From: Polytrichum commune | Lineage: Eukaryota > Streptophyta > Polytrichopsida > Polytrichales > Polytrichaceae | NCBI GenBank assembly: GCA_950295325.1 | Contig: OX485803.1 | Location: 51,785,554 to 51,849,553, forward strand | Reading direction: 5' to 3' | DNA: 64,000 bases | Part shown: in pieces, positions 9,221 through 62,913 of the stretch | How the letters are laid out: each line of letters starts with the position of its first letter | Position numbering within the stretch: the stretch's first letter is position 1 | Made by a program: the position numbers and the translations under genes | Notes under the pieces: generated by a model | Databases searched by the model: none | Told to the model about the DNA's origin: nothing | The model's input: the letters and a program-made list of their open reading frames with translations, nothing else

Positions 9221-9370
9221 GGGTCATTTACACAAATGACCAATGATTGGTAGATAAAAATGATTTAGGATTTCTTGTGGTCATGGTAGGCAATCCAAAG
9301 ACCATGACCAAGGGAAACCCACATCATTGCTTAAAGGCCTTGGTCATGGGGAATTGTGTAAAAGGGACTC
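9221..9370. mobile_element. Short inverted-repeat element, Harbinger-like ends
   Basis: About 150 bp. The left end GGGTCATTTACACAA matches the inverted right end GAGTCCCTTTTACACAA with one indel and a few changes, and both ends also carry a GACCAA or CATGACCAA block. The left flank is TAA and the right flank is AAA. The terminal pattern resembles that of the elements at 20677, 43279 and 62402. Confidence 0.45.
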
Positions 9371-11326
9371 AAACTCCGGTGTAAGTGTTTTTTATATAAA
9401 AAATAAAACCTCATCAAAATAAAGGATTGGCTAAAATTAAGATACGATGAATCAAAATAAAATAAAATAAAAGTTGTAAATTGTTTTTGCCATGGTCACT
9501 TTCCCTTTTCGCTAGGACATATCTTTATTTGATGGCATGTAAAATCCAAGTCACCCCCATGTCACTTTCTCATCCATTCTCTAACATTAACATTTTAATT
9601 TCTAGTAGCTTGGTGTAAAACGAAGTGGGACCAACATTCATTTCTCAGCCAAGTGAAAGAATTCAGTAGGCGGTGATCATGGCAGTTGGTCACTTAGGGT
9701 AAAGGTTGCCTAATAACTCCATGGGGTCCAATGGTAGTTGTGTAGCAGCAAGAGCGGAAGAATTGTTGCATGCAACCTTCCTTCTCATTTCATCGAATAA
9801 AAATGTCCTAAGTGTAAAGTTTTGTTACACCTACTAGGGGGTTTTGAAAAATCCAAAGATGATTATTTCAAGCCAAACTAACCCCTAATTTGGGATCAAA
9901 GATCACAAATCAATCCAGTGAGTTAATTTTTTTGCGAGGGATAATGTTTACCCTCCACTCGGTAGGGTTTGTGAACCAAATTCATGTATTGGTATGCAGT
10001 CATGATATTATGTTGATTTGACATTTATATTACAATCTTTCATCTCTTTACTCAAGGCACTTGAATTATATTCCATAAAATCAGGGTGGCATATGCTACT
10101 TGAAGTTCTTGGTGAAACAAACTTCCTTGCTAAACTAATTGTCATTGTAAAATCGTGAGGTATTTGCATGCATGGGTGTTTGCCAACACATGTCAAAGTG
10201 AACAAATGTATGTAAAAATAGCTCTCATTTGTAAAGGTTTGAGAATCCTTGCACATCGATTTTGTTGCCTCTCCCAAAGCAAACAAATGTGCAAGTCCAT
10301 CTTTACAAAGTCCACATTGAACAATGCAATGTTTTAGTTCAAGCATGTGTTGAACTAAGAATACATCATGATTTCTATATTTTGTAAAATATTTGTGGTG
10401 TTCTGCTATGACGTGCACCACATGAAATCAAGCTATTAAAATTAGCGACAAAAGTTCAAAACAATAAAGCCCATACCAAAGCGATACATTAACCACAAAC
10501 TTATAGGAACAATTTTTTAACATGAATGGATAAAGGTACATTGATTGCAATAGTTCATGTGAATTTCAATTGAGAGTGTAGGATTTCAATGCTCACCATA
10601 GGTTGTTGCAAGACAACAAAGTATTGTATGTAATTCATTGCGTAACATGTTAGTGATTTATAAATCAATTACATATTGTATTTTTTTGAATACGTAGCAT
10701 ATTAGTAATTCGTCAATCCCCCCCCCCCTCCTTCCCTTTCCCCCCCAAGTTCATAAAATTCCTCATTGTTATGAACATATTTTAGAGAAATTTAACCATG
10801 TGGATGTAAGCACTTTGTAGTCTTTAAACTCATAATGTAAATTTGCATAACTTCAAACTTCTTAGATAGATTATAATGCATGAGTGTGAAGTGGTATGAA
10901 TGGGGCATCATTCGCAATTTTCTCTGGTATTTCAAAATTTGAAAACTTTATAATCAAATTAGTGAATTTTACAAACCATCATAGGAAATCTTGTCAATGT
11001 TTCAATAGAACTACATTTAAAAAATAATTGAACATTTCACATGACAAAAAATGCACAAATATTACATCCAACTATTATTTGATATAGCATTGTGTAAGTT
11101 CAAATAATAAGTGACAATAAACATCATATTCAGTGGAGCATTTCACTCCAATTCATAGCATTACTCAAATCTAGGGTGTTGTTCCCCTAGTGCTGGGAAT
11201 TTTACAAGGATCGTTACCGCATTATGTTGGGCCGAACTTATTGAGATTTTTAATGGAAGTTGTCATAGAAAACTTTTGAAAATGCTAGGTAGTATGTACT
11301 TGCTATGGTGAAATCGAATAGTTATT

Positions 11327-11367
<41 letters not shown>

Positions 11368-12701
11368 TTCACAATGACAATGTTTAAAGTGTCAAACTAG
11401 AGCATGATAACAATGTTGGATCTTGATTGACGCACAACTCATAGTTAAGGAAGGTTTGAGGGTTCCAGCTTTCATATAGCAACATGTGCATTTTTGTTTT
11501 GTAGTAGTAGGTTTGATTATAACTCAAAATAGACTTAAACACCTAATCTATGGTGTGAGTACCGGATGTAAAGCACACCTGATATTCCCAAGCATTTGCA
11601 CTTCATATTGAAGGAATATAAGGGAAAGTGGCCCTAAACAAACATTTTTAGCTTTGCACCCACTTCTCCTAGGATAGGAAACACATGATTAGTGCAAGGT
11701 GGTTAGCGAATCCAAATCAATGTTATAATCATTTTCCTCATTTTCTTGGAGCTCGTATGCATATCTTATTTATTATCAAAGTGTGTGTGTGTGTGTGTGT
11801 GTGTATGAGAAGTCTTAATAAACTCAACCGTGAATGTTTTCAATGGTTCAAGTAAGTAAATTTCATTCAAACATGTTGGCCTTCTAGTGTGTTAAGTGCT
11901 AATCTCGTCCCCAAAGAATATGGGTTAACACTACAAGTACATGTAGAACTTGGTTTATGTCCTCAACATATTGTCTATCCTCAATGCACATAGAAGATGA
12001 ACTTCTAATGTGTGTTGGGAAATCAAAAAATACCATCTTTGATTTTTCTTTCTCTCTCACCTATAATTTTTTTTTATAAATATGAACAAATTTTCAAAAT
12101 TTAAAGCAAGTATTTCCAAAATATGTAGGAGGTTCATAGTAGATAATGTATTATTAATAGAGAAAAAGGCCTACATTGGACAATGTTCAAACACAACAAA
12201 GACTCTCCAGTGCATCAACAAAATGATGCTCACACACACCTCAGGTGATGGAAATGCATACAAACGGCAACTCCAACACCTCTAGGTCCCCTCTTCCCAT
12301 CGGATTACACCACACATGAATAGGTCATGCTATAGCCTATAAACATGCATGTGTTCGACCCTCACATGTTGATGCCCCTTCCCTCCCTCAAAAAAAAGAG
12401 ACTCTATCTTCACATTTTTCTCATTGGGGGCTTACCCACTTATGCGCCAATTCCTTCTCATCCTACGGATGGACTTAAGGTTCACCATATCAAAAGTCAC
12501 ATCTTTCTATGATGGGTTCCATGATCTATAGAAAAGTCAATAAATCACACCCCTCATGGCCACTTACAAGTCCAATGGCTAAAATGTTCGACCTTTCACA
12601 GTCCAACAAGGTGGTCTCCTAACACCACCCCCGCTGAATGATTGACTCAAATACTCCCTCCTTAAATTGCAAACCATACATAACCAACTCCACGTGATTC
12701 C

Positions 12702-12759
<58 letters not shown>

Positions 12760-13589
12760 AAAGGCAACTAAGGTAGAGGGTGCTTAAATAACACTTTAAG
12801 CTATTGCACATACATATGGCACCAAGCTTGAACCAATAATGCCATAACACATGCTTTGGTTTTGATTACTAAATTGAGGAGGAATGAACGATTATGGTAG
12901 ACTCTAGACTGTGGTAATATATTTGGACCAACTTTTGACTTAAAAAATTCCCAGTAATTTCAATTCAAGGAATAAAATTACAATAAAATTGCAATCGTTT
13001 GATTTCTATCTTCCTACACGAAACGGTTTTGCACCGCCTTATACTTATCCAAATCTAGCATAGAATCTCTTAAGCTATCAGTTATGGGTGCCTATACTCT
13101 AGTAAAATGTGGGCAATTGAGAGACGTTTATAGGTGTTGCTTTTGGGTGGGGTGTTGGGATTTAGTACCCTCTACCTTATCCAAACCAAACCAATACGTT
13201 GAAGCTTCCCGTAACTAGTATATCGGTGGAATATTTAACTACCTAGGATAGAGACCGGCCCCAACATGGGGGAAGTAGCATGTGGGCAAAGAGGATCTTT
13301 GCTCATGCTTGCTCCACGTCGGGGAGACGTTTATATCTATACGTTATCGACATAATTTTGGAGCTCGATTATCCAAAGCAGATCAATTCTTGTAGAGTTG
13401 TGGTCAACTAAGAAAAGGGAGAAGATTAAGCAAACTTCCACCTCCAAAAATGATTTTGAGGTTTGAAGTATTGAAAGGCATGAACAAATATATGGGAAAA
13501 CGCTAAGAGGGCTTTATCTCAGGTTTCCATACCCCACATGCATTGAAATGAAATGAAATTGATTTAAAAGTCCAGGAAGCAAAAGGGTA
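9371..13589. other. Intergenic with microsatellites
   Basis: No supported gene. It holds a run of 11 C (10718-10728), TG repeats at 11335-11361 and 11781-11804, and a TC repeat at 12704-12756. A 137-codon open frame on the minus strand (10008-10421) is long for this AT-rich DNA but shows no domain or splice context. The segment around 9550-9715 is a diverged relative of 14290-14450. Confidence 0.55.
12704..12756. repeat. (TC)n microsatellite
   Basis: Uninterrupted TC dinucleotide repeat of about 53 bp, the longest dinucleotide tract in the window. The Arg-Glu open frame read on the opposite strand is an artefact of the repeat. Confidence 0.95.
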
Positions 13590-13979
13590 ATGGAACTAGA
13601 AATACATCGAGATATTTTCAAACTGGCCAATTCTTTAGAACGGCAAAGTGCGGTAGCCTCCGTGAGATAGAGGCTAATGTCAAGTTGCTAGTCCAATCGA
13701 AAGAAAGACTTGAGGCTTTCTAGTACTACATTCTCAAATAGTGATGGAAGTTTATCTCCGATGGGGTTATACAGGGAACACTCCAACACAAAGTGTGCCT
13801 CATTTTCAACTTCACTATAAGAGCAAAAGCGACATAGTATATTACCCCTAGAGATAGGGAGACTCGACCACTGTCCAGTTTCAATGGCATGTCTATGATT
13901 GGAGGTGCAATAAGAACCAATGATCTTGCATTGTGGTGATGTCAATGGTTGCTGCAAGTACAAATGCATTGTGAACACT
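13590..13979 (-). pseudogene. Non-LTR retrotransposon (LINE) C-terminal remnant
   Basis: On the minus strand the frame reads SNHRHAIETGQWSSLPISRG, then CRFCSYSEVENEAHFVLEC, then SLYNPIGDKLPSLF. This is a CxxC...HxxxxC zinc-knuckle segment as found at the C-terminus of plant and animal LINE reverse transcriptase ORFs. A stop follows (after FFRLD), and a shifted frame continues as DISLYLTEATALCRSKELAS, so at least one frame break is present. The reverse transcriptase and endonuclease domains are not in the window. The element is dead and truncated at its 5' side. Confidence 0.65.
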
Positions 13980-15319
13980 ACTCTGAACTACCCCACTCTA
14001 CTTGTATAAAAGGTTGTTGGCTTTATCTTCTTCCCAAGAGTTACAATTTTGTGAATGTGGATTATTAGTGTCTATTAACTGGTTAGTAGTACACAAGGCA
14101 TGTGGATTATTTTTTCTTCTTCAAAATAAGTCATTTTTGTACTTAGTGATGTATACACATATATTTTGAGGTCATTGGAAAAAGGTTTCCGAACAATCAC
14201 CCTCATGTTATGTTAGGCAACTTATTTGCCTTTCTAACCTCAAAACCTAAGTGTCCACCAAACATTATTCATTTTGAGCAATGCAAGATTTCACATCACT
14301 TGCTCATCTGTTCTTTGACGCCGTCAATCTTCATTTTGCGTGACCTTGTGTGAAATGAAGTGAGACCACCACTCCTTCCCCAACCAATGAGAAATTTCAT
14401 AAAGCGTTGGTCACGACCCTTGGTCACTAGTCCAAACATGCCCTAAGTCACACCAAAACTATGAGAACTCAAACAAGCAATTGGAAGTTACATGATCAAA
14501 GTGTTGGATCTCATGACTATTGCAAGAGCCAAGTCCCCACAGAAAAACAAACAACTTCACTACACGTGAATTCAAAAACACACTTTATATCTTTGACCAT
14601 CAATCTCACATATTAATACCAATAAAAAAAGGAGCATTGAATCTTTCACACAAGATAACTATATTAAGTATGTCCATGAAAACCCTAATCCATTTTTCAA
14701 AAAAAAATTCTCAAACTTAACAAAGCTCGTAGAGATCATATATACATATACGGTGATATAATAGTATAGCCATGTCGTACATTGAGAGCCCCCCACGTCC
14801 TTTACGGGCCCATAGACATGTTTTTATGAACCCATGATTGGCATTGTAGTTTTGGTTTGTGTTTCCTCTTCTTTTTGTTTCCACTAATTGAAGGGACCGG
14901 GAAGCACACACCAAAGTTGTGAGTGGAAAGAGTCTGTAGGCCACCTACCAACAAAGGCCGAGCTTGCATGAGCCAAGGCTATTAAACTTATTACTAGGTG
15001 AATGTGTACCTCCAATTTCTTGAAGGCTCCAAACCCAAAAGTGCGACCACGTCCTTAAGAATTTCTTTGAATATAATAAAGCAATCTACGGAATACACCT
15101 CCGGTTACTAAAGAATAACAACATGTAACTAGTGGGAGTTGGGATTTTTGACCGATTCCGCCCAAAAACCCACCCCCACCCGACACCGGTAGGCAAACCA
15201 CCGATGGAAACAAAAATATCTCCACGATTTCGACCGAATTCTACTACCTCACCATCAACAACCCAATGTACGAATTCTACGTAATTGGACCTCTATGTTT
15301 GTTTTGATCAAGGGTTGGA
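13980..15319. other. Intergenic, no gene seen
   Basis: No coding signature. The part at 14290-14450 (GTGAAATGAAGTGAGACCAC, then TTGGTCAC motifs) resembles 9590-9715, so it is probably another old repeat family. A terminus-like TGTTTGGACTAGTGACC (inverted, near 14430-14445) has no partner nearby. Confidence 0.5.
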
Positions 15320-15550
15320 AGTAGTTGAGAACAAACACCAAAAGACATTGTGTTTTGATGACGTTGGACGACGTGCTCAAATGATAGACATCATTCTTGG
15401 TTTACTGATGAATATAGTTACATGATCGTTTGAGAAAGAGAAAGAGAAAGAGAATGTAACCCATGACGAACTTCTGCATCTCAATTCTGGTTTAAGAAGT
15501 TGAAACGACAATGTTCACAATTGGCAATTGTGGAACCGGATGAAACGAAT
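15320..15550 (+). repeat. Dispersed repeat R1, copy 3
   Basis: Carries AGTAGTTGAGAACA, AAAAGACATTGTG, GACGTGCTCAAATG, TTCTGCATCTCAA and CACAATTGGCAATTG in the same order as the other R1 copies. It is truncated at the 5' side and followed by MITE 15647-15775 after about 100 bp. Confidence 0.5.
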
Positions 15551-15646
15551 TCTGAATATGATCCAATATGGAAAAATTGTTTGTGGAGTTGGCAGTGCCC
15601 ACAATATGACCACATGGTTTAGGTCGCACAGTGGTCTACATGATAC

Positions 15647-15775
15647 GTTGATTGTCCCAATTAGTGTGTGTTCCTATTTGGAGTTACTTTGCTTGGTAAA
15701 ATATCACATTCTCGTTAAATAGGTATGGAACCGCGTAACTCCGAATAGTGACACGCACAAAATGGGACAATCAGT
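15647..15775. mobile_element. Short MITE, subfamily C derivative
   Basis: About 129 bp, almost all of it the two inverted arms. The left arm reads TTGATTGTCCCAATTAGTG and continues with the CTATTTGGAGTTAC core. The right arm, inverted, reads CACTGATTGTCCCATTTTG followed by CTATTCGGAGTTACGC. It is probably an internally deleted form of the 8948 type. Confidence 0.7.
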
Positions 15776-16959
15776 GTCTCCTCCGGTTTTAATAACTCCT
15801 CTCAATTCTCAGCTGATTCAGAATGCTTCATTGCTGAAAGAAAGAAAAAAAGACTCCGATAATCACTACTCCAACATGGGCAAGTTATGTGCACATAATT
15901 TCTAGCGAATTCTACTACTGAATGGAAGTAATTTCCCCGTAAATATCAGGTCGCACATGTAACGGCCACACACGTTTGAAAACGCCGGTTTTAAAAATGG
16001 AGTTCGGTAAGCCAAGGTGAAAGAAATTTGGCCTCCACGTCTGCCTAACTTTCACATGAGATTGGTTTCAAGGGTGATCCCTCCTTTTTTGGGGGATGAA
16101 ACCGTTCGTTTTCAACTCCGATCCAAGAGGGCAGTTTTGCAATGCTTAAACCCGATGTTTTCATTTAGAGTTGGAAACAAACGGTTGTAACCACAAAGTA
16201 AGAGGGGCCAACCTTGAAACCAAGCTCCTCGAAGTTAGGCAGATGCGGAAGCTGAAATTCTTTAACCTCGGCTTAACAAACTCCTTCTTTGAAATTGGCG
16301 TTTATGAACGTGTGTGGCTCTCCTTTATAGTCGCAATAGTAGTAGTGACCTATTGTGTTCAAATTATCCATGATCGCCTCCTGCCGATTTTACGAATCCT
16401 TCCAAATCTTAACTAATCATGAGAATATCCACCACCTTAACGTTAGGCCCCTATGTTGGTTTTAGGTCATTGGAGTTACCAACGAAAATTTCAACCCTTA
16501 TTATAACCTTTGAATACAAAATTCTAAAGAATATTCTATTTTTGTGTGTCGGAATACCCTCTCTATAGCTGACGATAATCATCTAATATTAGTACAAATG
16601 CTCGATGCTTAAGCGGTGGTGTTTAACACCATCTATCTTATATAAGGGCATTATAACCTCCTCATGATGGAAATTACATAAACACATTTGTCTTCGAAAA
16701 CACTCTAATATTTAGTTAGGTGTGGTTCCAAGAACGGACACCAAAATGACACGTGTTTTGAATAGATTGGATCGCATGTTCAAATACTATGATAACCATT
16801 GTGAATTCAATGGCTACCATAATTGGAGGGGAGAACCTATTACGGTCATTCAATGAGCACACGAATATTCCACTTTGACATTGAATAAAATATTCATATG
16901 AGCTCATGAGGAAAGTGGTGACACCCTCAATTTGAAGTTGCTAACCCATCTCGTATTAG
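15776..16959. other. Intergenic, no gene seen
   Basis: No gene or element recognised with confidence. Part of 16720-16900 shares GACACGTGTTTTGA and CATGTTCAAATAC motifs with the middle of repeat R1 and may be a further decayed copy. Confidence 0.5.
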
Positions 16960-17165
16960 TGTCCAGGGAGAGTTTTGGGCATAGTCGGTCAAAATCCTTG
17001 TGGTTCCCAAGTCCAACCAGTTACATGTTGTAATCTTTCGGGTTTTTCTTTATTAGTTTGAGGTATATTCCATACATTCCTCTTTAAAAGGATCAATAAT
17101 TTTTCCCAAAGTCTTGATGAACTTCAACCGGTCATTCCTCAAACTCAACCGGTCGATCTATAACT
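16960..17165 (+). repeat. Dispersed repeat R2, copy 1
   Basis: Shares a run of blocks with 21868-22070 in the same order: GGGAGAGTTTTGGGC, a short segment ending in CCAAGTCCAACCAGTTACA, TTTTTCTTTATTA, TGAGGTATATTCCATACATT, then CTTGATGAACTTCAACCGGT. A third copy, inverted, lies at 57395-57545. No ORF; the class is unknown. Confidence 0.55.
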
Positions 17166-18281
17166 AGCGGTTGGTTCTCCCCATTCACTATCTTGTATTA
17201 ATCGCGTGATTTTTCATAGCCTAGCTAGGGGACGAGGCTAGTCGAAAAAATCAGCCATTTAAGACCCGTCTACATGTAACCTTAATTGCTACCAGTGTGT
17301 GTATGTTTGACAAATTTCATTTGACATTCAACTTCAAATCCAAAGTGTCACGTGACGCTTCCAAAAACAAAAATGAATGTCAATGAACACCTACCATTTT
17401 CTTCTTAAAATGTCACCTCAACGTCACATGCCTAGTCGTACGTGCCATGTCAATTTCTGAAGCGTCAACTGACGTGTAGTTGTTTTTTTCCTTCACAAGT
17501 CACACTACACATCAAATTCTAAACCGTGCGGTTCGATTAACGTGCATTTTATTCATTTGTGTGCAAGTTTTTGCGTGTCAAATGTCAAAAACTTCCCAAA
17601 ACTTTGTCAAAAAATACACACTGATTGCTACACCATGAACACAATTAACACTGGATCCGAGGGAGGCCCGCAAATGATCATGTGCGAATTTCCAGTGCCT
17701 AGCTAGTAGTTCCCTCCTGAGACCTGGCGGTGGCAGATTTCATGCTTAATTAGTACGTCCAAATTCTGAGCCTAGCTACCTACACGTAGAGTGTATAGTG
17801 CCTTACAGACAACTCCTAATAAAACCCAACACCACACCCGAGTGTGACCCACCCTTTACTTATTGCTAGAAACATTAATGAGAACTTTTATACAACTTCC
17901 ACCTATAACTACCGCTTTATACATATATATAATAGAGTTATCCGTAAAAAGTCCCTCAAAGATTCACTCCACTGATTGATGGATCCCAATTAACTTAGTC
18001 GCGTGTTACTATTTTTAGTTACGCAGCGCAACAGTAACGCCTTACCGAGGAGTTATGAAAGTTTTTAGTAATGAAAGTTTGATAGTTTGTTTGTTTGGAC
18101 ATTATACTGGAACGTAAATGACTTTGCTTGGTGAAAATATTGTGTTCTTGTAGTTGAAATGTGGTAGTTTTATGGCACGATGGTCTAATACCGAAGTGAT
18201 CAGAATGACGATGATTGGTGTCATTTTAGTCACTTTGTATTAGATTGTCGTGTGTGACGAAACTAGCACGTTCCTATAACG
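17166..18281. other. Intergenic with one MITE end
   Basis: No gene. Near 17974-18045 there is a diverged left arm of MITE subfamily C (ACTGATTGATGGATCCCAAT, then GTGTTACTATTTTTAGTTAC). A right partner could not be identified with confidence. Confidence 0.45.
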
Positions 18282-18655: not shown

Positions 18656-20676
18656 AGCCTTGGCAAAATAGTGTGTGCTACGGGAAATCAACACCATATG
18701 CACTAATCGTGATAATAAACATAGTGGACCATGGGTTCGATCCTCCTACTCTAAGAAAAACAACGAAACTTTTGATGAGGAGCTTGTTAGTAACAGTAGC
18801 TCCTCGTGCATCGGAGCCCGTTTTCGAAAGCCATGTGAAACATTTGGGACCTCCTCCTCGTTCCACTTCTCAATACTTGAAAGAATTTTAAAGATCTACA
18901 GTAGGATATGAACATGGAACTTGTTGTCCTAAATCCCAGAGTGGCTTATGCAAGGCTAGCTTAGCTTGACCCCCCCCCCCCATCCTAGTAGGACGAGCTA
19001 TGAAGCAAAGTTTCTAATAGCTCCGACACATGCCACTCTTTATGTATGGTGAATCAAGCATTAAGAAAAACAACTTGGGTGACTTTGTGTTAATTCTCTT
19101 GAACTCGGGGTTGGGGACTAAACCGATGATGGAAAATAACTATAACAAGAAGCGCCAACTCCTCCAGCTTATGAGTAGATAACTGACCCTGTGTGTGTGT
19201 GTGTATAGACCGTGTCAGCCAAGTGCTAGTAGTAGTAGTAGTAAAGAAGATTCGGCAGTGTAATCTTTTGGTTTTGTTGGGGTCTCATAATTTGGGTGCA
19301 GAAAGTACCCCTTGAATTATTAGTCCGGCTCAGTTGCGCGGTGGGGGCCTTGAATCCCGAGGTAAGTTAATTTCGCAGACGAGCATACTCGAAAGTGCAT
19401 ACAATAATACACCAAACCCTCCCTCACTCCGCCACTCTCCCTTCTTGTGCATTTCATCAAGACGGATAGATAGATAGATGGAGTTAGGCATCTTGGACAC
19501 AATAATAAGAATAAGACTAATAATTGAAGATACTACATGATACGTGTCACATGATTGCTAAAAACTGGTGTAACATAATAACGTGTCTTCAACATCTAAA
19601 GGCCGAAGCCAAATCTTCCCAAACTCGTCTGAAAATCAATCAATGCAACCCAATTCAACGGTTTAGTAGACCAAAATTGATACCATGTATGATATATATA
19701 TATATGTATGACTCTCTCTATATATGTCATCTTTGTGTAGTAAGGATAGTTCACACAAATTCTCGATTGTCTTTGTGTCCAACATCATAATATTACGACG
19801 TACATGTGTATTGTCGGGCGATGGGCGACTGCTTCGATAGAAACACTCAATAAGTGCAAGATGATTAGCAAATCCAAATCATGGTCATAGTCATTTCCTC
19901 ATCATTTTTGGAGCTCATATGAATATTTTATTCATTATCAAAGCGATTTTTTCTAAAAAAAAATTGTGTAAATTCCCCAATTTTATTGGTTGTTGATCTA
20001 GAATGGTCAACAACTTTTGAGCATGTAATTTGATTTTTTCAAAAACACATATCTTTTGGGTGTTTATTCTCATATCCACACCTGACCACACACACACCAC
20101 TCAAATTATATAGGTGTCCATTTAAGATGAGTAACCAAATTAGGCTTACCTATTACCTTTGTTCCATGACCACTTCAATGCACAGGGAGAATTGACCGCT
20201 AGTTACTTACAAATGAACCAATTGAAGATGAAGACTTCGATAGAATTACCGATCTTTGTAGAAGAACCTAAGGAATACACCCTTGATTTTATTATAATAA
20301 TAATAATTATAATAATAATTATAACTACACTAAATAGGATATTTAGTGTTTGATTATATTTAATGTTGTTACCACCTACCCTACTCAACACTAATTTTCA
20401 ATTTTTTGACAATTACTGTTGGAAGATATGCTAGAAGATATCATGCATTTCTCTTTTTTATCATTGTTTGTTTTTTAAATTCCATATCCTTACTAACACT
20501 AAATTCAAACATGCAACTTCCACATAACACCATAGTTGATATTCAGTGGTTGAGTTTACATCTAATGTTACTTACTTTCATAGGGTTATTGATATTTAGT
20601 GCATGCGTTCTTATTTAGTGTATTGATATCACAACATGCAAGTGGCTGGAGTTGGAACAACTAGGATTGCGACTGA
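18656..20676. other. Intergenic, no gene seen
   Basis: No supported gene. It includes a run of 12 C (18970-18981), a short TG tract near 19191-19204 and an ATAAT-type microsatellite near 20294-20330. A GGTTCGATCC B-box-like string near 18733 has no accompanying tRNA. Confidence 0.5.
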
Positions 20677-21579
20677 GGGCCGCTTTACACCTAGAGGCCG
20701 GGCCAATTCGTTGTGTAAGAGGCTTGAAATCCTCACTTGTGATTGGCCAAAAGGCTGAAATCGGCCCCAACCCCTTTACACCTAGAGGCCGGGCCGATTT
20801 GGTGGCATGACACGGCCCCGAGCTCATTGAATTGGGTGCACCCAAAATGGAAGGCCAATTCTTGACCTCGGGGCCTATATCATATTTCAATTAAAAATAA
20901 ATAAATAACAAACTATGTTTTTCTTAGCAAACCATTTCCATCGGATTATGTGGAAATATGAACAGCTCTATGCTAGATTATGCTAGATCCGTTGGATTAT
21001 GCTAGATTCATTGAATCGGCCTAGCTTCTTGACCCTAAGGCCTTTACATATGGAAAAACTGACCCCCATTATAATCTTATTATAATGTGTAGTGGAGGCC
21101 GGCCTCCAACCCAAAAAGGGCTGAAATTTCATGCAATCGGCCTCAAGGGGAATTGGCCCGGCCTCTAGGTGTAAGAGCATCCTCAGTCGGTCTAGGTAAA
21201 GCTCACTGCAAACCAAAACCTATCTTTTGACTGACCTAAAATTAGAAACTGAAATTACCATCATTAGAAGCACACCTAAATAAACGTGAGATATTTCTCA
21301 AGAAAAAAGAATTGTAAAAATTTGACGTAGGTGAAATCCCTCATTGAAAACATCACATTTTCAAAATTTAGAGGGAGTGCACCAAATCTTGCTTAAAAAT
21401 GGAAAGATCCTCCCACACTCCCTCCAAATTTTTGACATTTAGAGGGAGTGTGGGAGGATCTGTCCATTTTTAAGCAAGATTTGGTGCACTCCCTCTAAAT
21501 TTTGAGCATTTTAAGCAAGATAGGTCTTGGTTTGCAGTGAGCTTTACCTAGACCGACTGAGGATGCTCTAAAGCAGCCC
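20677..21579. mobile_element. Harbinger-like non-autonomous element (outer) interrupted by a second element
   Basis: The left terminus GGGCCGCTTTACACC begins at 20677. The matching right terminus is split by an inserted element: GGTGTAA ends at 21174 and AGCAGCCC resumes at 21572. Removing the insertion and one TAA gives an inverted right terminus GGGCTGCTTTACACC, one mismatch from the left. Beyond the terminus, arms continue as CTAGAGGCCGGGCCAATT on both sides. The flanks are TGA on the left (20674-20676) and TGA on the right (21580-21582), a 3-bp target duplication. A second internal copy of the CTTTACACCTAGAGGCCGGG block lies at about 20771-20800. No transposase ORF. Confidence 0.85.
21175..21568. 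mobile_element. MITE nested inside the 20677 element, with internal palindrome
   Basis: 394 bp flanked on both sides by TAA (21172-21174 and 21569-21571), a 3-bp target duplication. The ends are inverted repeats of about 42 bp, starting GAGCATCCTCAGTCGGTC and continuing TAGGTAAAGCTCACTGC, with near-perfect identity. Inside, 21366-21505 forms a second large hairpin whose arms contain AGGGAGTGCACCAAATCTTG and its complement. The high arm identity suggests a more recent insertion than its host element. No coding capacity. Confidence 0.88.
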
Positions 21580-21867
21580 TGATTATGCCCTAAAATCTCC
21601 CCCGGACACTGGACCACTTTTGATGCATCTGTATGTTGGGCCCGGGAGTTGAAGTTGTTTTTTTTTATAAAAAAATATTAGGTTGGTTAATTAGGAAACT
21701 TGGCCTGCTTTATAAAATTTTCCCTTCACTTTTGGAGCTTGTGTGACTCTGACAAGCGTGTGTCATATAGAAGCTCACTCCAGACAAAGCAGGCCCTTAA
21801 TCCTGTTAAGTTAGTTATTGTTGGCCTCCAAATAATCAGCCTCGCATGTCTTTTAGTTAGGGCCATC

Positions 21868-23926: not shown

Positions 23927-23934
23927 CATGTATA

Positions 23935-24908: not shown

Positions 24909-24940
<32 letters not shown>

Positions 24941-39346: not shown

Positions 39347-40538
39347 GGATGGAGGAGTTGTGTGTCAATTTGATGAAAGGAAGGGTGGTGAATGTAACGA
39401 TGGGAGATATGTAGCGAGTTCTGTCTTTTGTAAGATCAAGGGCTTCCGTAATACCTACAGCAGTCTGTCCGTAATGTATGGTGATACAGAGGCACAGGGG
39501 AGTTGTACCTATTAACATCATCAGGTTTATAGTATCATATTGAAAGGAGCAAATTATTTTTGCTCAAAGCAAGGGCCATTCTTACATGACCCCCATAGAA
39601 GAAACGAGTAGGGATAGATGTGAGAGCCCGGCTACATGGTGTATCCGTAGGCTCATTTTGAACCAGGCAACTCTCAACATTGAAAATGAGAAATCTGTCT
39701 GCTGTATAAAATTAAGTTGGATGTGGGAGCATCACAACCGGTTGATCGTACGAGGTTAAGTTTTTTTGAGGTTAGTGCACTTGCAGAAGCTCTACCCATC
39801 ATTTTAGTGGTAGACACACACAACCAATCAGTTTGGTAGCAAACTGTGCAGCCCTTGAAGGGTGCTCCCTCAACTGGGTGTGCACACCACCGTTGACACA
39901 AGTGTCGATAGTCAATAAAAATGTTAATTATGCATCTTATCCGTCCCTCTTTCTATGTCAACTTGCACATCTATTTTTCACAGCTTTCATTGAAGATTCC
40001 CTGTTTGGAGATTCAGAAGTCGACATGATGCCCAAAGAGACTGAGGTACGCATTGCATAACAACCAATTTTGGAATTTCTCATTTCCTTGATGCCTCATA
40101 AACTTTTCATGAGGAGATCGTACTCATGGAGTTACCATGAGTAGTCAAAAAACTGAATTATAGGATTCAGCACACATACATGAAGATTGCAAAATTATGT
40201 AGCAACGCACTCTTTCAGCTCCTAATGCACTAAGAATCCACAAGCTGTACACTGACTGTAAGCCACAACATTGTCAATGGCTATTGTGAACAAAGAGTCC
40301 TAGCTGAGAAACAGCAACTACAAACTTGTAGTTGCAATCTTGTAGCGCCAGAGGTCTGGCGAATGTGTATATGAAGGCGAGATCATGAAGCTCTGGAAAG
40401 ATATGGAGGTAAAACCAAAGTGTTTGGAAATGGAAGTGAAATAAGGGCCCTCTCCATGAGGAGTCAGGGCCAACTAGGCTTTGACATGCATAAATCCTTG
40501 TACGTATAGGTCTAATTCATCAAATCATCTAATCCCCA
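39347..40538 (+). other. 3' untranslated region and downstream flank of the DCD gene
   Basis: No conserved coding sequence. One segment (39984-40045, 62 bp) is bordered by a strong acceptor (TATTTTTCACAG) and a donor (GAG/GTACGC) and could be an alternative or 3'-UTR exon. Its protein reading has no recognisable domain. Confidence 0.4.
39914..39919 (+). terminator. Candidate polyadenylation signal of the DCD gene
   Basis: An AATAAA hexamer about 570 bp after the stop codon, the first canonical one I see downstream. Plant signals are loose, so the true 3' end may differ. A possible extra exon lies beyond it (39984-40045). Confidence 0.3.
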
Positions 40539-40741
40539 AGGCCTCTTTACATGATGAGAGTCAAAGGCCATTCTCTCTGAAATTCATTTTCTAATGAGGT
40601 GAATTTCATATTTTAATGCACTAAAGAAAAATCTGACACTGCCTGAAGTAATAGCGATTGGATTCCTCCCCCCTAGTCAATATTTTGTGGGAATTGGCTT
40701 CAGATTTTAAAGACCTTGACCCCTCATGTAAAGTGGACCTA
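40539..40741. mobile_element. Inverted-repeat MITE, Harbinger-like ends
   Basis: About 203 bp. The left end AAGGCCTCTTTACATGATGA corresponds to the inverted right end TAGGTCCACTTTACATGAGG. The arms continue with GAGTCAAAGGCC on the left and GGTCAAGGTCTT on the right. No ORF. Arm identity is moderate, so this is an older copy. Confidence 0.6.
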
Positions 40742-41061: not shown

Positions 41062-41888
41062 GGGGTTGTTTACATCAAGGACCATGGAGATTGCTCCCTT
41101 ACAATATGTGATTGGCCGTTGTACTCGTCCCGGGTTCACTTTAGTTTACATCTAGGAAAAAAAATGTCAAAGTGATTATGGAACTTGAGGTCCCTAAAAG
41201 GTTTATTTGGTCAAACGAAATTGTAGTTAAGAAGAACGAAGAGAGGAAGAAGGGGAGAACGTATTACATGAAAAGAAAATCCAAAATTGCCCTTTTTGGA
41301 CATATATTAAAAAATAAACACATCTTCCTTTTTTGGGTGCATGGTCACTCCTCTTGGTCCACATTTGGTGAACTGATGAGAACGTGGACTAAAAGTATGA
41401 ACTGATTATCCCAATTAGTGAGGGAGGGTGAATAATGAGTGGGAATTTAGTGAAGGCGATACTAAATTTCTTTACACTATGAAATCACACCACCAAAAGA
41501 TCTAGGAAGCATTGTTCATCCCGACATTATTCACCAAACATGCTATTCATAACAACACTAGTCATTGAAAGTACCGGCACTTGGCACTATTCACTGAAGG
41601 TATCGACATTTGGCACTAATCATTGAAGCATGTGTTTCCATATAATCTTTTCTTATCACTCTACAAACACCTTAGAGCACACATTAAATTTCTTGAAATC
41701 TATGGTAAATGAGCACGTATTCACAGATTTAGTGTCATTACCTAAAAATTAGTACCACCCTCTCTAATTGGGGAAATCGTTGTAGTAGAAGCCCAAAGGC
41801 TTCAGAATTTTCACTTTTCATAAATTTGACCATGGGAAAATGCCATCTGACTTGGGACAACTTCGTGGTCCATGATGTAAACAACCCC
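41062..41888. mobile_element. Inverted-repeat element, Harbinger-like ends, carrying another element
   Basis: 827 bp. The left terminus is GGGGTTGTTTACATCAAGGA and the inverted right terminus is GGGGTTGTTTACATCATGGA. Identity extends to about 28 bp with four mismatches. The left flank is TTA; the right flank (CTT) does not match. Inside lies the 380-bp element at 41401-41780. The remaining internal DNA is non-coding. Confidence 0.75.
41401..41780. mobile_element. Repeat H element nested in the 41062 element
   Basis: The left tip ACTGATTATCCCAATTAGTG is followed by AGGGAGGGTG. The right tip, inverted, reads ACGATTTCCCCAATTAGAG followed by AGGGTGG. The outer tip equals that of MITE subfamily C (8948), but the interior is different and is shared with 18282-18655. 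It contains several short direct repeats around CATTCACTGAAG/CATTGAAG and TTGGCACTA. Confidence 0.65.
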
Positions 41889-43278: not shown

Positions 43279-43682
43279 GGACCGGTTCACATGGGATCCC
43301 AAGTCTTAAGTCCTAAGTCACTTGAGGTCAATCCCTGCAATCTCAATCATTGAGAGCATGGAAGTTGGGACTTATCACTTCACAGAGGGTCCCAAGTCCT
43401 AAGTCCCAAGGCATGACATGGATGCCTACACGACAACACTTTTTGAAGGCGAGACTTGGGACTTGTGTTGAGAGTTGGGTTGAGTGAAAAGTTAGACCCA
43501 ACTCTCAACATTAGTGCCAATAAATTTTTGCATAAAATAATCAAGATATGAACCATACTTTAATGAATATAAATCATGTTTTAATTGGTATCTTGAGGTC
43601 CGAAAGTTGGGACTTTGCCTCCACGTTGGTACTTGCTAACATGAGTGGGACTTAAGACTTGGGACCCCATGTGAAGCAGCCC
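43279..43682. mobile_element. Inverted-repeat element, Harbinger-like ends
   Basis: 404 bp. The left terminus is GGACCGGTTCACATGGGATC and the inverted right terminus is GGGCTGCTTCACATGGGGTC. Both continue CCAAGTCTTAAGTC, giving arms of about 34 bp with few mismatches. The flanks are TAA (left) and TAG (right). AAGTCCTAAGTC-type blocks are repeated inside near both arms. No ORF. Confidence 0.8.
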
Positions 43683-55699: not shown

Positions 55700-55712
55700 T
55701 AATTTTGTCCTG

Positions 55713-55748
<36 letters not shown>

Positions 55749-56340
55749 ACGACACATGAACCTGATCACATCTTCTTCAAGTCATCGAAAGCTTTCAACT
55801 ATTGTCAGTGTCGCCGGTGCCTCGACTGCACCTCACCGAGCTGATCCTCTATCTCCTCTGCACACACACACCGACTTCTTCTGTCGACTCTGTCCGTACG
55901 ACCTCGCTCATAATTTAGTTTCTTCGATCGGGTCCCACACAAACCTCCGATTAAGCTAAATTTGCACATAACCATATTACCTACCTAAATCTCGGAGTTC
56001 CTCGTCTCCCCGCCTCGGTTCTCCGCCATACACCGCCCCAAGCTAGCTTAGCTGCAGCAACCTCCACTTTCCTGCCCGAGGCCGGTCGTCGCTCTCCCGC
56101 CTCCCCTAGCTACAGCTCCGTCCGCGTCTCTCTCCCTCACTCCACTCTACATAGCTCAGCACAAATTTACTGACCTACTTACTGTGCAAGTCCGCACAAT
56201 TGGTTAGTACACCACCTTCATTCACTCATTCTCCTCGCCATTAAATACAATATAAGCTCATAGGTGAGCGATTAGGACTTCCTCCAAGCTCGTCGCCTGC
56301 CTCTCCGCCCGCGCGCACACACACACACCAAAGTAATGCC
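55700..56340 (-). promoter_or_regulatory. Putative promoter and start region of the IQD gene
   Basis: A CG-richer stretch with a TC/GA microsatellite (55716-55747) and pyrimidine- or purine-rich tracts. It resembles the compositional shift seen upstream of the DCD gene. It ends at a CA repeat near 56310-56328 and the MITE at 56345. No TATA box or start site could be fixed. Confidence 0.35.
55716..55747. repeat. (TC)n microsatellite
   Basis: 32 bp of TC repeats (GA in the direction of the IQD gene). GA repeats near start sites can act as GAGA-factor binding sites in plants; that role is only a possibility here. Confidence 0.9.
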
Positions 56341-56344
56341 CTTA

Positions 56345-56669
56345 GGGTGGGCTTACACTAGGGTCCATGACCCCAAAAACCTCCGAAATCGCGCAATCTT
56401 ATTGGCCGAGAGCTAAATGTTGGACCCAAGAAGCTCAACATTAGAGTTCGGTCCAAGCCCAAGATATGAAAAAATGAAGTGGTGCTAATGTGACATCACT
56501 TTAATTTTCTATAAAATCTTAGCGGTCCCCACTCAAGAAAAATATTCCCCCTAGTTTGAGAAAAGAGTTGTCAAGCTTGTGTCCAATCTTGAGTTCAAAA
56601 GTAAGGTTTATGAAGGGTGTTTTCAATACCAAGTTTTTATTAAGCCCAAACACTAATGAAAACCCACCC
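56345..56669. mobile_element. Inverted-repeat MITE with TTA/TAA flanks
   Basis: 325 bp. The left end GGGTGGGCTTACACTAG corresponds to the inverted right end GGGTGGGTTTTCATTAG; the flanks are TTA and TAA, so CTTAGGGTGGG and CCCACCCTAAG form a palindrome. No ORF. It sits directly upstream of the IQD promoter region and could carry regulatory sites, but this is not shown. Confidence 0.65.
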
Positions 56670-56795
56670 TAAGAGTACACTTTCATGTGCTTGCCATTTT
56701 GGCAAAGCAATATAAAGTTCGCCGACATTGGCTAAGCTCCCCCCATTATCTTACAACATCTTCAAAGGGCCGACCATTCCATGTGGGAAAAGGGG

Positions 56796-56831
<36 letters not shown>

Positions 56832-57394
56832 ATATGAGGAGTAGATATGCTTTGACCAACCTCGTACTTACCCATTTCAAGTATTACATGACTGAATCTA
56901 ATGAACTTCGTATCTTGAAATTCTAAAAAGATCCATATAAATCCAAAAAGTATGAAAATATTGGCTAACTTTTGAATTATAGAACAATACGTCATCGTAA
57001 GAAGAAAAGAAAAAGAAAAACAAGTGTTCAATATGACAACCTCAAGTCCACACCATCATTTTTATACAAAATCGTTTTCCCCCACTCAAATGAAAATCGG
57101 TCTTGAAGTTCCGAAATAGAGAGTCGGTCAAATCCCCAACCTCAAACTCCCCCCCCCCCCCCAATGTGGGCTGTTGACTTTTATTTGTAGAAAACCTTCA
57201 GCACACATGTCCATGTGGAGGGGGTCCAAAAATTTGTCATCTAGTAGTTTTTGCCGACTTCACCCTCATCCACCCCCCATGGATTCTTTTTCACTCCTCC
57301 TCTTTCCTCAATCAATGCACACACCATGCCGTCAAGGCCTTTCTTCTGCCTCCAAACCAATGAAAAGGGAGGAACGGACTGCTAGGTGCAGATG
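56670..57394. other. Intergenic, no gene seen
   Basis: No gene. Contains a GA microsatellite (56799-56829) and a run of 14 C (57149-57162). Confidence 0.5.
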
Positions 57395-57545
57395 AACCGG
57401 TTTGAGTTTGAGAAATAGCCGGTTGACGTTCAAGACTTCCGGAAAAATTCCTAGTCATTTTAGAGGAATCTATAGAAGAATATACCTCGGTTTAATAAAG
57501 GAAAACCCGAAAGATCACAACATGAAACCCAGTTCGACGACTTAC
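57395..57545 (-). repeat. Dispersed repeat R2, copy 3 (inverted)
   Basis: Inverted relative to the copies at 16960 and 21868: ACCGGTTTGAGTTTGAG, CCGGTTGACGTTCAAGACTT, then GAGGAATCTATAGAAGAATA, which is the complement of the TATTC-TGGATTCCTC part of R2. Confidence 0.45.
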
Positions 57546-57989
57546 AAACACTGGGATCTTCACCAATTATGCCCCAAACCCCCCCCCCCCAAACACTGCT
57601 CCTCTAAACCTCCAAAATCACTTCCCACTTACAACTCTCTCCTCCATCCCTCGGCCGCATCTTATTAAGATGGCTCCGCACACTTATTAGGGTATGTGGG
57701 TGTCATTTGGTTCGTTTTCCATGTTCTCCGGCTTCTACTCATTAGATATGCACAACAAAATGCAAGTTGCATTAGGAACTCTACGATGAAACATATGCAA
57801 AAAAATTGGATTGAAAATCATATCTCCTCTTATTTAGTTATGGTTATTGGAAGTGCATGTTTGTTGATTTCTTACTAGACACATGGCCCTTCTATTATCA
57901 ACGTGGGGAAACCCATGCTTAAAATGCCTAAGAATCGTACGACATAATAAAGCGGTACACCTCATTACCCATGCATGACAAGCTAACAT

Positions 57990-58480
57990 AAACACCTGAT
58001 TTCTCACACTGACCAATGCAGGCAACCTTAATAACAAACCCCCCCGAACAAACAATCCCATATTGGCTCCTTGAATGTACATGCCCACAAATAACATGCC
58101 AATGCCAAGGCAAAATACAACCAGAATTTTTAAGCATAATCGGAGCCCCAAAGCATACACAAACACCAATAGCACCCTCCCCCGCACTCACAATCCAACT
58201 CATTGAATTCACATACTGACACAACAAATACCCTGACCAAGCCCTCACACACAAACACGCCAAATACGACCCCCTCATTAACACTATACAAAACAATGGG
58301 TGGAAGACCAACCCCCTAATTACCATCACAACCAAAGTAAGAGGGTATACGAACACTCCATCAAAAAACTTACCAATCTAAAGATCCCAAACCCAACCAT
58401 TAAAACCCTCATGAGAAATATCCACGAGATTGCCATCAAATATCTCACATATTTGGTTTTAAACTAAAGAAAACTTGAAA
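57990..58480 (+). pseudogene. Decayed retroelement-like ORF (probable non-LTR type)
   Basis: A strand-asymmetric (A/C-rich, G-poor) segment. One frame reads TIPYWLLECTCPQITCQC, then GAPKHTQTPIAPSPALTIQL and IEFTY, then a TGA (58217-58219). It continues HNKYPDQALTHKHAKYDPLI, NTIQNNGWKTNPLITITTK, then needs a frame change to read KIPNPTIKTLMRNIHEIAIK and YLTYLVLN, followed by a TAA and RKLENK. The clustered CxC...CxC and the KYDPLI...NGWKTNPLIT block resemble segments I associate with non-LTR retroelement ORFs, but I cannot verify this here. Retained frame with two stops and one shift shows an old coding sequence, now dead. Confidence 0.45.
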
Positions 58481-58891
58481 ACAAACACCCCCTCCCCCCC
58501 CCCCCGGCGTAAATTGGAAAGGTACATACTACACCCGAGCCCACCTCCTAGGTGGCATAACACCTTATGTTGCATCACATACTACCGTGATCAACATCAG
58601 GCCAACGGGCTCACATTCACGCTGGTACCTAGTTATGGGCGTTACTTTTTCTTTTTTTCTTTTCTTTTCTACACAAGTCCTCCCAATTGTGTTCACGACT
58701 GAGTGTAGAGTAGTTAATATCAATGTTTGAAGACATAGTCCAACCCTTTTTTAAGCATGTGTCTTTATGGTGTTTGCACTTTGAACCTCGTTGAATCACT
58801 TACCAATCAAATCTAGGGGGTCTGATTAAGAAAACAAGCCACTTAAGATCCATATACCTTATTATGATTTAGCATGGTAGGGTACTAATAT

Positions 58892-59114
58892 GTACACCAA
58901 ATATGATATTTGTTTCACTTACTATTTGGAATTATGCAATGCTATATCTATTTACCATGTATCTCATATTTTACCAACAAATGTCAAATTGATTGTTTGG
59001 ACATTATAAAACACTAACAACTTTACTTGGTAAGAAATTACATCAACAATAAAAAAGACATAGCATTGTGTAACTTCACACAATAAGTGACACTAAATAA
59101 CATGTTTAGTGTAG
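58892..59114. mobile_element. MITE with long terminal inverted repeats (subfamily A-like)
   Basis: About 223 bp. The left arm reads GTACACCAAATATGATATTT, then CACTTACTATTTGGAATTAT and GCAATGCTATATCT. The inverted right arm reads ACTACACTAAACATGTTATT, TAGTGTCACTTATTG and ACACAATGCTATGTCT. The interior holds TTTTACCAA and its complement TTGGTAAG-like. It is related to 251-488 at the tips and to 8948-9165 in the core. Confidence 0.72.
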
Positions 59115-62100
59115 TTCTATGTGTTGTACGTCATATGTGGCCCTTGTCGCTTCCTTTGTTAGTTGGCTTGTCTTTGGTTAAGTTCAATGTACAAATGCCC
59201 TCCATTATTTGTACATGTAAGGTAACCCAATAGTCTTAAAATGGTTAATATGTAGAGGGTGCTTTCTTTCATCTCTACAAGTGCCAAAATATTTGTAGTT
59301 TCCACGTGGGATACAGGAGGCTTAAGCCAATATGAACGTGACATGTGGCAAAAATCGATGGAAGAAGACTTAATTATCTGTCAAGATAGAGAGCTTTCTA
59401 TAATTATTTTTCATGTTGTTTGCAATGAGATACAACTCCGGTGCTTTGCCAAGCCAAAATTTTGGCTAAAGTAAGCAGGTGTAATTTGATCATTTATCTT
59501 AATTGGAAAATGTCTATATCTAAGTGGTGTTTGAATAATTGTGGATTTAACAACAAAGACCTGAAAGACATGTTGGACGCGAGCATGGTCAAGTGGACAA
59601 CTTTTGAATCATGCATAGGTTTAAGTGATATAAAACTATATACTAACTTTGAATTTTGTGAAGGAAAATTATTCCAAACAATTGAAAAAAACACATTGAT
59701 TTACAAAGCCAATCCATTTATGTTGAAATTTTTTTGAAAAAAAAATCTACATATTTTAGAATATAGTGCAAGTGGTGTGCAAGCAGCCGATATTGATCAA
59801 ATAATTGTCTAAATTCTATTTAATATGATAAAATTACACTAAATTGATTTTTTTTTTACAAATATTTGTAATGATGCCCTCAAGTTTATGATGAATTCAA
59901 GGAAATATGAAATCAAATCCAACTTAAAATAATTGAAGGTCATGAAATTTACGTCCAAAGTCAAATTCAGCCAATAACTTTTGAGCATCTTTTTCAATGA
60001 TAAATTTTAAGATATTCTACATTTGAGCATTTAACACAACAATAAAGGTTGCCGTGATAAAAAAAAATCAATTTAAACAACACTTTGCTACTACTTTGAG
60101 GCGTTTGACCCCCAAAGAAAATGCCTTTAATATACTAGAGCGTTTATTTTGGTGCACTTGGCCGTGCTCGCACCTTTTGTTGAAAAGAGATCAAACTACA
60201 TGCTCAAAATTTGTTAACCATTATGGGTTCAGTTATCAACATAATTGGGGGCGGGGGCGGGGGCGGGGGCGGGGGGGACATGCATGGCCTTCTTATGGCT
60301 CACTACCAACAAACTTTGACAATTAATAGCAATTTACGATTATTTCCAATGATTTCTTCATATTCATTTTGCTAACACACCAAAACTTCAACCTCACAAA
60401 CTAAAGCAACACAAAGAAGCAACAACACAATCCATAGAAGATTCGATTATATATATACATATATATAAACATGTACCTTAATATGTGAATGTGGAGAAGC
60501 CATGTTCGATTGCGGAGAAGACATTGATAACCCTTTTTGCATTGATATGAATTCTTAAAGGAGGGAGTGTTTTGGATCGCTCGTTTCTTGGCTTTTCGAC
60601 CCCAACATAAGCCAAGTACTTCTTCTCTGCCTTTCCTTGCCTCCCATCCTCCATGAGTAGATGAAAGTACCGTTTCTCTTACATCCGAGTTTTGAGTTAC
60701 TTTCATCATCTCCATCTGACAAGCTCGCCTTCAAGCATTGTTTTCAATTTCACCCATCACACTTGAATTTTGAAATGGCCAATTAATTAGTCCATTAACA
60801 TAAAGATTCTCTCCTAGTAGCCCCCCCCCCCCTTTCCCCTCCCTAGGGCTTGGTTTAAGGTTGCGTAACATTCTCGCATATTATGAGATTGTTGCACGAT
60901 CAAGTCTCTTGATCGTGTCTCTTATATTACTTGGTTTGTTGAGTCCCTATTGAACTTCACTCGTTGTCACTACAATAAATAGTCTTATTAGAGTGGGTGG
61001 TATATTAGTGTGGAAATGATTAGCTCGGCTAACCCTAATTCCTAGTCAAGGTGGAACTCGCATGCGTCCAAGACCCAGGTCTTTCCCCAAGTCTTTGTGA
61101 AGATTTTTGACCAACACGTTGATTATTGATTATAGGATAAAAGCAACACTAATCACCCACATTAATTTTCTACTAGAAACCTAGCCTCGGATGAGAATTA
61201 TTGTGGCCCACGATGATTCTTAGTATGAGAATTCACATAAGCTCTAAAAAAAATTGTGGCCCACAGTAGTAGGACTATATAGTGTAGTGCCCACCTCTCT
61301 TCCCATGCCAAAAAGATCTAGCAAATAGAAATGAAAATACAAATTTGGCATATGATTAGAGAGTTGTGCCACAATCCTTTGGTATTCTTGACAAGTCTAT
61401 AATTAATCGTAAGTGTTCAAAATGAGTATGAAATCGATATTCATGTTTGAAGGGATGTCCCATATTGAGTCCATATTTGCCATTCTCGAACTTCCATGTG
61501 AGTGACTTGATGACACTAACTATCCACGAACCTTCGATTTGATTCCTAATCAAAGGCTACAATTTGAGTTTCTTTCTTGAACATACTTTTAGTTGGGGAC
61601 TACACAAATGTTTGACTTAGTGGTTAAGTCAAACATGTGCACATAGGTGGCAAAGAAGGTGGACAATATTCTTTTGGTCGTGTAAGAATTAAACAAGCAA
61701 GCTCCTAAAACTTCAAGACTTTTTGTATACACACCATACTTGTATTCGGAAGACGAAATCTCGTCAAGTTCGATCGTCATCATCTCAAGGACGACTGATT
61801 TAATGTCCAAAAAACAACAAAGACAAAAATAAAACTACATCCGTCACTTTCAAACCGAACCATGAAGTGAGGTATGATATGTGTATAACAAATAGCGTTT
61901 AGAAATGTAGAAACAAGAGTATCAACTATTGAAGGCCATTACGGCTATAAATTTTGTGATTGACATTCATGAGGTGATTTGGGGGTGAACGAAATCTCAA
62001 ACTTGCCTCTTCCTTCATTTTAAAGGTGTGTTTTTGGTGAAGGAATTGGAATTGAACAAGGAACATGACATATCATGAAATTCCATACTAAGAGAACCCT

Positions 62101-62398
62101 TCCCTTCGGGGAAAAATGTGTCCAATCCGACTTGTCATTTGCCACTAAAACCCTTCATTGCAACTCCACCAAGTCGTCACGAACGATAGGTGCCGCAACA
62201 AGGACAATATGTATTGGCCAAGCTTAGCTTTCTCATGGTGAATGGGATCATAGTAATAATACTATTTGGGTCATAAGTCAGAGTTTCAAAGGACTCCAAG
62301 GACAAGATCTTAGAATCCTAATACCAGTCGTCCCATGTTATGCTGACACAATCGCCATCAAGGCAGTAACAAACTTTGGGCGTATGAGAGTCCATACC
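59115..62398. other. Intergenic, no gene seen
   Basis: No supported gene. Contains the GGGGGC repeat (60247-60277) and a run of 12 C (60821-60832). Open frames reach about 100 codons (59441-59737 and 60401-60715) with no family signature. Confidence 0.5.
60247..60277. repeat. (GGGGGC)n hexanucleotide repeat
   Basis: About four GGGGGC units followed by a run of seven G, in otherwise AT-rich DNA. Four or more G tracts with one-base loops fit a quadruplex-forming sequence. Confidence 0.9.
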
Positions 62399-62401
62399 TA
62401 A

Positions 62402-62913
62402 GGGCCACTTCACACACGAGCCAAGAGCCGTGACCGTGAAATTGTGAGAGCCCAAAAGAAAAGTGTCCAAAGGCCGTCCCAACACACCTCCAAAATCACG
62501 TAGTGTGGTCACGGACCCTCAAGTGTAGTGTGAAGTCCTATGTGACCGGGCCCTCAACCAAATGCTATTTCAATGAATTTGCTATTTCTATTTTATTCAT
62601 GCGGGTTGTCGTGCATGATAAAATAGAAGAAGTCAATGGTTGTGAGCGCTCAGAGTGCCGTGGTCTCCCGGTTTGGTGTAAGACCTACCTCCCAGAGGTG
62701 GTTTTTAGAAATAGTCCGAGTGATCATGAAACGTGATCCATTCGATGCCATGTAAAAATCCATGTAGGCTTTACATCCATCTTGCATTCACATACTCCAT
62801 TGGTCCCTCGAGCGTGGTGTGAAGCGAACTTGGACCCGCTCCGCCTTTTCCACCAATGAGAGTGCTTGGAATGTATCGGTCACAGGCTCTTAGTCTCGTG
62901 TGTGGAATGGCCC
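62402..62913. mobile_element. Harbinger-like non-autonomous element with TAA target duplication
   Basis: 512 bp flanked by TAA on both sides (62399-62401 and 62914-62916). The left terminus is GGGCCACTTCACACACGAGC and the inverted right terminus is GGGCCATTCCACACACGAGA. Both continue to AAGAGCC and GTGACC, so the arms reach about 37 bp. No transposase ORF. A TAA duplication and G/C-rich short termini fit the PIF/Harbinger group. Confidence 0.85.

Follow-up and report, generated by a model that had tools for sequence, protein, structure and literature searches.

Elements with a shared end layout in the window

The window analysed here, a 64,000-nucleotide stretch of the Polytrichum commune genome (C1:51785554-51849553), contains seven elements (F1 to F7) whose ends were compared for a common layout, a G-run followed by 3-6 bases and then TTTACA or TTCACA, together with an element nested in F1 and a repeat nested in F5.

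F1, 20677..21579, unstranded: PIF/Harbinger MITE, 506 bp without the nested insertion; TIRs alike at 32 of 33 positions; target-site duplication TGA at 20674-20676 and 21580-21582
Nested element in F1, 21175..21568, unstranded: 394 bp, GAGCATCC...GGATGCTC; flanks TAA/TAA
F2, 43279..43682, unstranded: MITE family, 404 bp; ends GGACCGGTTCACATG / GGGCTGCTTCACATG; flanks TAA/TAG
F3, 62402..62913, unstranded: MITE, 512 bp; ends GGGCCACTTCACACA / GGGCCATTCCACACA; target-site duplication TAA/TAA
F4, 40538..40740, unstranded: repeat with inverted ends AAGGCCTCTTTACATGA / AGGTCCACTTTACATGA; no target-site duplication; left edge approximate
F5, 41062..41888, unstranded: element with perfect 15-bp ends GGGGTTGTTTACATC; mismatched flanks TTA/CTT
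Unrelated repeat nested in F5, ~41401..41750, unstranded: abundant in the genome; edges approximate
F6, 56345..56669, unstranded: old repeat family, 325 bp; ends GGGTGGGCTTACACT / GGGTGGGTTTTCATT; flanks TTA/TAA
F7, 9221..9368, unstranded: short repeat; ends GGGTCATTTACACAA / GTCCCTTTTACACAA; no target-site duplication found

All seven elements end in an inverted counterpart of their first end, with 0-4 mismatches over 15-17 bases. All eight end strings quoted in the initial annotation were present, six of them at the quoted base; the string placed at 40539 starts at 40538, and another lies at 43668-43682 on the minus strand, where it is the other end of the element at 43279. The interiors had been described as different, and no blastn match at E ≤ 0.01 was obtained among the seven elements. 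The TAA or TGA flanks described in the same annotation were recovered in part: the 3-bp flanks are identical in two of the seven elements (F1, TGA/TGA; F3, TAA/TAA), differ at one base in two (F2, TAA/TAG; F6, TTA/TAA), and do not match in the window copies of the remaining three (F4, F5, and F7).

The true right end of F1 (21565-21579) is interrupted by the 394-bp nested element, which sits in a TAA within the right TIR of F1 itself. Removal of the nested element together with one TAA restores a right TIR identical to the left one at 32 of 33 positions. The nested element, in which 52 of 60 outer bases are alike in inverted orientation, probably belongs to a further MITE family that makes 3-bp duplications. 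Most of the window elements are PIF/Harbinger MITEs, and their transposases are located elsewhere in the genome; the assignment of F4 and F7, which are without clear duplications, to PIF/Harbinger is uncertain. The initial annotation had seen no such transposase in the window, and tblastn with the transposase of locus L010 (described below) gave a best E of 0.74 there.

Frequency of the layout in the genome and in the window

The shared layout, for which a genome scan against a control had been proposed, was borne out in the 407.8-Mb genome (64 contigs): TWAGGGNNNNTTYACAY occurred at 9,338 + 9,325 = 18,663 sites versus 78 + 77 = 155 for the reversed pattern, so that the layout with TWA was about 120 times commoner than its control. 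The first 100 listed sites contained 33 versions of the variable part, including CCAC-TTCACA (F3 type) at 37 sites and CCGC-TTTACA (F1 type) at six, and the base after ACA was C at 90 of these 100. The 15-mer end of F1 was found at 351 + 370 places genome-wide (control, 0 + 1), that of F3 at 4,212 + 4,273 = 8,485 places (control, 1 + 1 = 2), and that of F6 at 3 + 3 places (control, 0 + 0). A chance origin of the layout was rejected on the count of 18,663 versus 155, and was ruled out for F1 and F3.

In the window, chance was assessed with 100 dinucleotide shuffles. The loose layout occurred at 21 sites versus a shuffle mean of 12.5, a count reached by 6 of 100 shuffles, and formed 10 inverted pairs within 1 kb versus a mean of 0.44, with no shuffle reaching 10; both counts are inflated by overlapping matches at one end, which were counted repeatedly. 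The layout preceded by TNA occurred at seven sites (mean, 1.2; reached by 0 of 100 shuffles), and no inverted pairs within 1 kb with TNA in front were present in the window.

A coding element with the ends of F1

End pairs 3.4-3.5 kb apart were seen among the genomic places of the F1 15-mer. Two of them, L009 (3,397 bp) and L010 (3,499 bp), both have identical 33-bp inverted ends flanked by TAA/TAA. L010 contains a 367-aa ORF matching DDE_Tnp_4 (PF13359; E = 1.4e-28) and Plant_tran (E = 2.1e-11). A second ORF of L010, the locus covered by the domain scan of this Myb-like ORF, faces the transposase and resembles Myb_DNA-bind_4 (E = 4.6e-5; 24.2 bits, below the Pfam cut-off of 27). The transposase stretch of L009 is split over two ORFs, and the one scanned matches DDE_Tnp_4 (E = 2.8e-15). 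Full-length Harbinger-encoding elements with the ends of F1 are thus present; the initial annotation had proposed looking for them and had described the transposase as PIF/Harbinger-like from the size of the flanks.

F1, with the nested element removed, aligned with 16 copies (L012-L027) and was 97% identical to L010 over its first 134 bp, 80% over a middle stretch, and 89% over its last 187 bp. On these alignments, F1 is a plain internal deletion of its 3.4-3.5 kb coding element. Another locus, L011 (C1:20564300-20571100), where two perfect F1 ends lie 6.2 kb apart, was considered as a gene-carrying element; this reading was dropped because a 5.7 kb insertion at MITE position ~398 separates the two parts of what is an F1 MITE, and three scanned ORFs of L011 gave no Pfam match at E ≤ 0.01. 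L028 contained no such pair of ends.

Target-site duplications

Among 27 distinct end pairs from loci L001-L111 and the window, with ends alike at 12 or more of 14 positions, 22 had identical 3-bp flanks, and 21 of these 22 were TAA or TTA, in agreement with the PIF/Harbinger assignment; the pairs are mostly of F1 type, and many were chosen for two perfect ends. When flanks were compared between different elements as a control, 258 of 702 (37%) were identical. The target context over the 22 exact pairs leans towards A-C-TWA-G-T. Maize PIF has a palindromic target; a PIF target consensus was not found in a literature search of one open-access collection.

At three places (C1:4529880-4529912, C1:4888656-4888688, and C1:210107-210137), two adjacent elements have ends that face outward and are separated by exactly 3 bp. 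The spacing suggests that the 3-bp duplication of an earlier element served as the insertion site of a later one; the intervening letters were read at the third place.

Ends of related transposases

The L010 protein gave 111 scored relatives out of 1,955 candidates, 45-100% identical to it. Relatedness between transposases is expressed here as percent identity to the L010 protein alone. In the F1 group (83-100% identical), 22 of 25 loci carry TNA + GGGCCGCTTTACACCTAGAGG, in this or a closely similar form, and its distance from the downstream gene is nearly constant; the other three have no such upstream end. All five group b loci (76-78%) have an end at a similarly near-fixed distance, with outer bases identical or close to those of F1 and ...AAGGAGT further in. 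Inside the genes, these end motifs were found at none of the 60 loci tested. In groups c-f (47-56%), 13 of 15 chosen upstream regions show T[ACGT]A followed by a group-specific version of the code, and those of L093 and L094 (54%) are without such an end. The ends of groups b-f were read on the transposase side only, and those of groups c-f are as follows.

Group c, 53-56% identical to L010: ends GGGCCGGTTTACACTACGG and GGGCCGGTTCACACTATGG
Group d, 47-50% identical to L010: end GGGGCGGTTTACACYATRGACCATGAA
Group e, 49-50% identical to L010: end GGCCCTCTTTACACTAGAAACG
Group f, 49-51% identical to L010: end GGGCCACTTCACACACGAGCCAAGAGCC

The first 51 bp of F3 are 92-94% identical to the 5' ends of group f loci L099-L102, and in L099 an F3-like stretch directly adjoins the end; beyond approximately the first 51 bp, no clear match of F3 to group f was present in the stretch read. 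In L111, a group f gene, the DDE part is 65% identical to that of L010, compared with 49-51% for whole group f proteins. F5 is 76-80% identical to the 5' region of group d (L095, L096, and L103) at the end and over a second stretch. The protein match is free of stops in L010 and in loci belonging to groups c, d, e, and f, and several transposases may therefore have worked recently; each of the five group b loci with ends has at least one stop inside the match. Separately, L112 (C1:5137945-5138660) holds head-to-tail copies, at 222-bp intervals, of the beginning of an F3-type element including its end and TTA (3.2 units in the stretch read, 94% matches), which looks like a small satellite-like array that originated from a MITE.

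Of the 30 loci with the best PF13359 scores, 17 have an end of related form, GG[GCT][CT][CG]...CCA[GC]AC, which reads like GGCCCNTNCCASAC; in 15 of these loci, GGCAGG comes next. Fifteen of these 17 loci are 43-46% identical to L010, and the other two show higher values over shorter stretches. None of the 30 has the TTYACA form; 13 have neither form, eight of which are more distant (29-36% identity). In the groups of L030, L031, L039, and L051, homology breaks revealed no ends, and the end of L031 was read later. Two PF13359 loci on different contigs, L053 (C1:3000848) and L054 (C4:4299466), are 99.86% identical over 3,516 bases; either a larger segment was duplicated, or a Harbinger element from a more distant group has transposed recently.

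F2 and F4-F7 as repeat families

In DNA searches of the genome with the window families, 40 candidates were scored per query. With the window copy excluded, the main matches were 81-86% identical for F2 (best 40 of 2,298 candidates), 71-78% for F6 (best 40 of 927), and 75-85% for F7 (best 40 of 353); F4 gave partial matches (best 40 of 66). The 32-base end of F2 was found at three places, two of which are the window itself; it is so rare because F2 copies are 14-19% diverged, just as the exact 15-mer of F6 occurs only six times because its copies are 22-29% diverged. With F5 (4,487 candidates), the 39 scored places besides the window match within ~333-708 of the query, the nested repeat, and pieces of the outer F5 were found at one place, C7:12981512-12982091. 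F5 is also similar to a d-type element in L080. No coding partner was found for F2, F4, F6, or F7 in the search, which covered PIF/Harbinger transposases only.

Copies elsewhere in the genome differed in their flanks. F2 copy L109 has TAA/TAA and L110 has TTA/TCA, and F6 copy L105 has TAA/TAA; F6 copy L104 does not match at the edges, and, by eye, F4 copy L106 and F7 copies L107 and L108 have no clean flank match. At the left edge of F4, similarity to L106 extends past the supposed end.

A probable single lineage with several end types

We consider it highly probable that what these elements share is the conserved outer terminus of a single PIF/Harbinger lineage, and that the window holds its non-coding MITE passengers. 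The initial annotation had suggested that a single transposase may move many interiors. At the protein level this is wrong, because F1 and F3 match transposase groups that are 49-51% identical, and each group carries the inner end sequence of the MITE family that it matches; the lineage is a single one but has at least seven end types, as well as GGCCCNTNCCASAC-like relatives. The best-resolved elements each match their own related enzyme, not one common enzyme, and the outer code seems to belong to the transposase lineage, with the inner bases distinguishing its groups.

By inference from the family, the transposase of the coding element and its Myb-like partner would bind the outermost tens of bases at either end, and the predicted enzyme would excise the element and insert it at TWA, duplicating 3 bp. 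The outer ~14 bases evolve slowly and are similar across subgroups, and the bases just inside evolve faster and differ by subgroup. As the inner bases differ between subgroups, each MITE family would most probably be moved by its own transposase subgroup; mobilisation by matching enzymes is predicted on the same family grounds.

Alternatively, one transposase might read the shared outer code alone and move all of these MITE families. The outer code is common throughout, and the outer 14 bases are shared by F1 and group b despite transposases that are 76-78% identical, so that exchange between near groups is plausible. However, each of F1, F3, and F5 matches the inner sequence of a different transposase group, identity to the transposase of F1 is 47-51% for groups d and f, and the stop-free matches in L010 and groups c, d, e, and f point to several possibly recent transposases; we regard a single enzyme as improbable. 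A chance or compositional resemblance between unrelated repeats would fit the weak enrichment of single sites in the window and the missing duplications of F4 and F7, but is very improbable in view of the genome-wide excess, the matching 3-bp duplications, and the coding partners of F1 and F3.

A reading confined to F4 and F7, and perhaps F6, is that they form another inverted-repeat family merely resembling the code. The window copies of F4 and F7 and, by eye, L106-L108 are without a 3-bp duplication, and L106 shares the left edge of F4 beyond its supposed end; against this, the ends of F4, F7, and F6 hold TTTACAY after the G-run, and F6 copy L105 is flanked by TAA/TAA. We consider this reading somewhat unlikely.

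The elements themselves are ordinary in kind, and the interesting part is how their end sequence may track transposase relatedness. The outer 14 bases are the same at 76-78% identity, a few changes appear at 47-56%, and the GGCCCNTNCCASAC-like ends lie mostly at 43-46%. We hold with middling confidence that such graded end codes follow transposase relatedness and that MITE families are tied to at least three groups, F3 having reached 8,485 exact end copies with only ~51 bp clearly shared with the 5' end of its partner. If true, the graded codes would provide a natural map of the end bases read by a PIF/Harbinger transposase. One enzyme lineage would explain several seemingly unrelated repeats, two or three MITE families of the window gain likely enzyme partners, and a genome in which transposases can be paired with their ends in several sets could be used for testing how recognition specificity changes over time.

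Comparison with known PIF/Harbinger systems

Two literal end sequences were not found in a literature search of one open-access collection. In rice, according to the portions of the sources available to us, mPing/Ping comprises Tourist-type MITEs moved by PIF/Pong elements (PMC2836001, PMC9921582), and both ORF1 and the transposase are needed for mobilisation (PMC2836001). The present elements are alike in that short non-coding elements share ends with a coding PIF/Harbinger element; in contrast to what those portions describe, several sets with different ends coexist here, and they are known from sequence alone.

The MtPH PIF/Harbinger elements of Medicago truncatula, in the excerpts of PMC2213677 available to us, have 3-bp TAA/TTA duplications, short ends starting with G, a transposase and orf1, non-autonomous deletion derivatives, and homologous ends in subfamilies within transposase lineages. 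The same organisation was seen here: TAA/TTA duplications, G-starting ends, deletion derivatives, and ends linked to lineages. The motif used for mining in Medicago, G(N)5GTT (PMC2213677), is close to the layout of the initial annotation and, by eye, fits the left end of F2, F5, and groups c and d, whereas F1, F3, and groups b, e, and f have CTT in place of its GTT. Nine of ten Medicago consensus ends in these excerpts hold GTTTGG, GTTTGT, or GTTTGC (PMC2213677), whereas the ends here read on as TTYACAC. The excerpts list 89 elements, from BAC sequence covering part of the Medicago genome (PMC2213677), whereas one end alone, that of F3, has 8,485 exact copies here.
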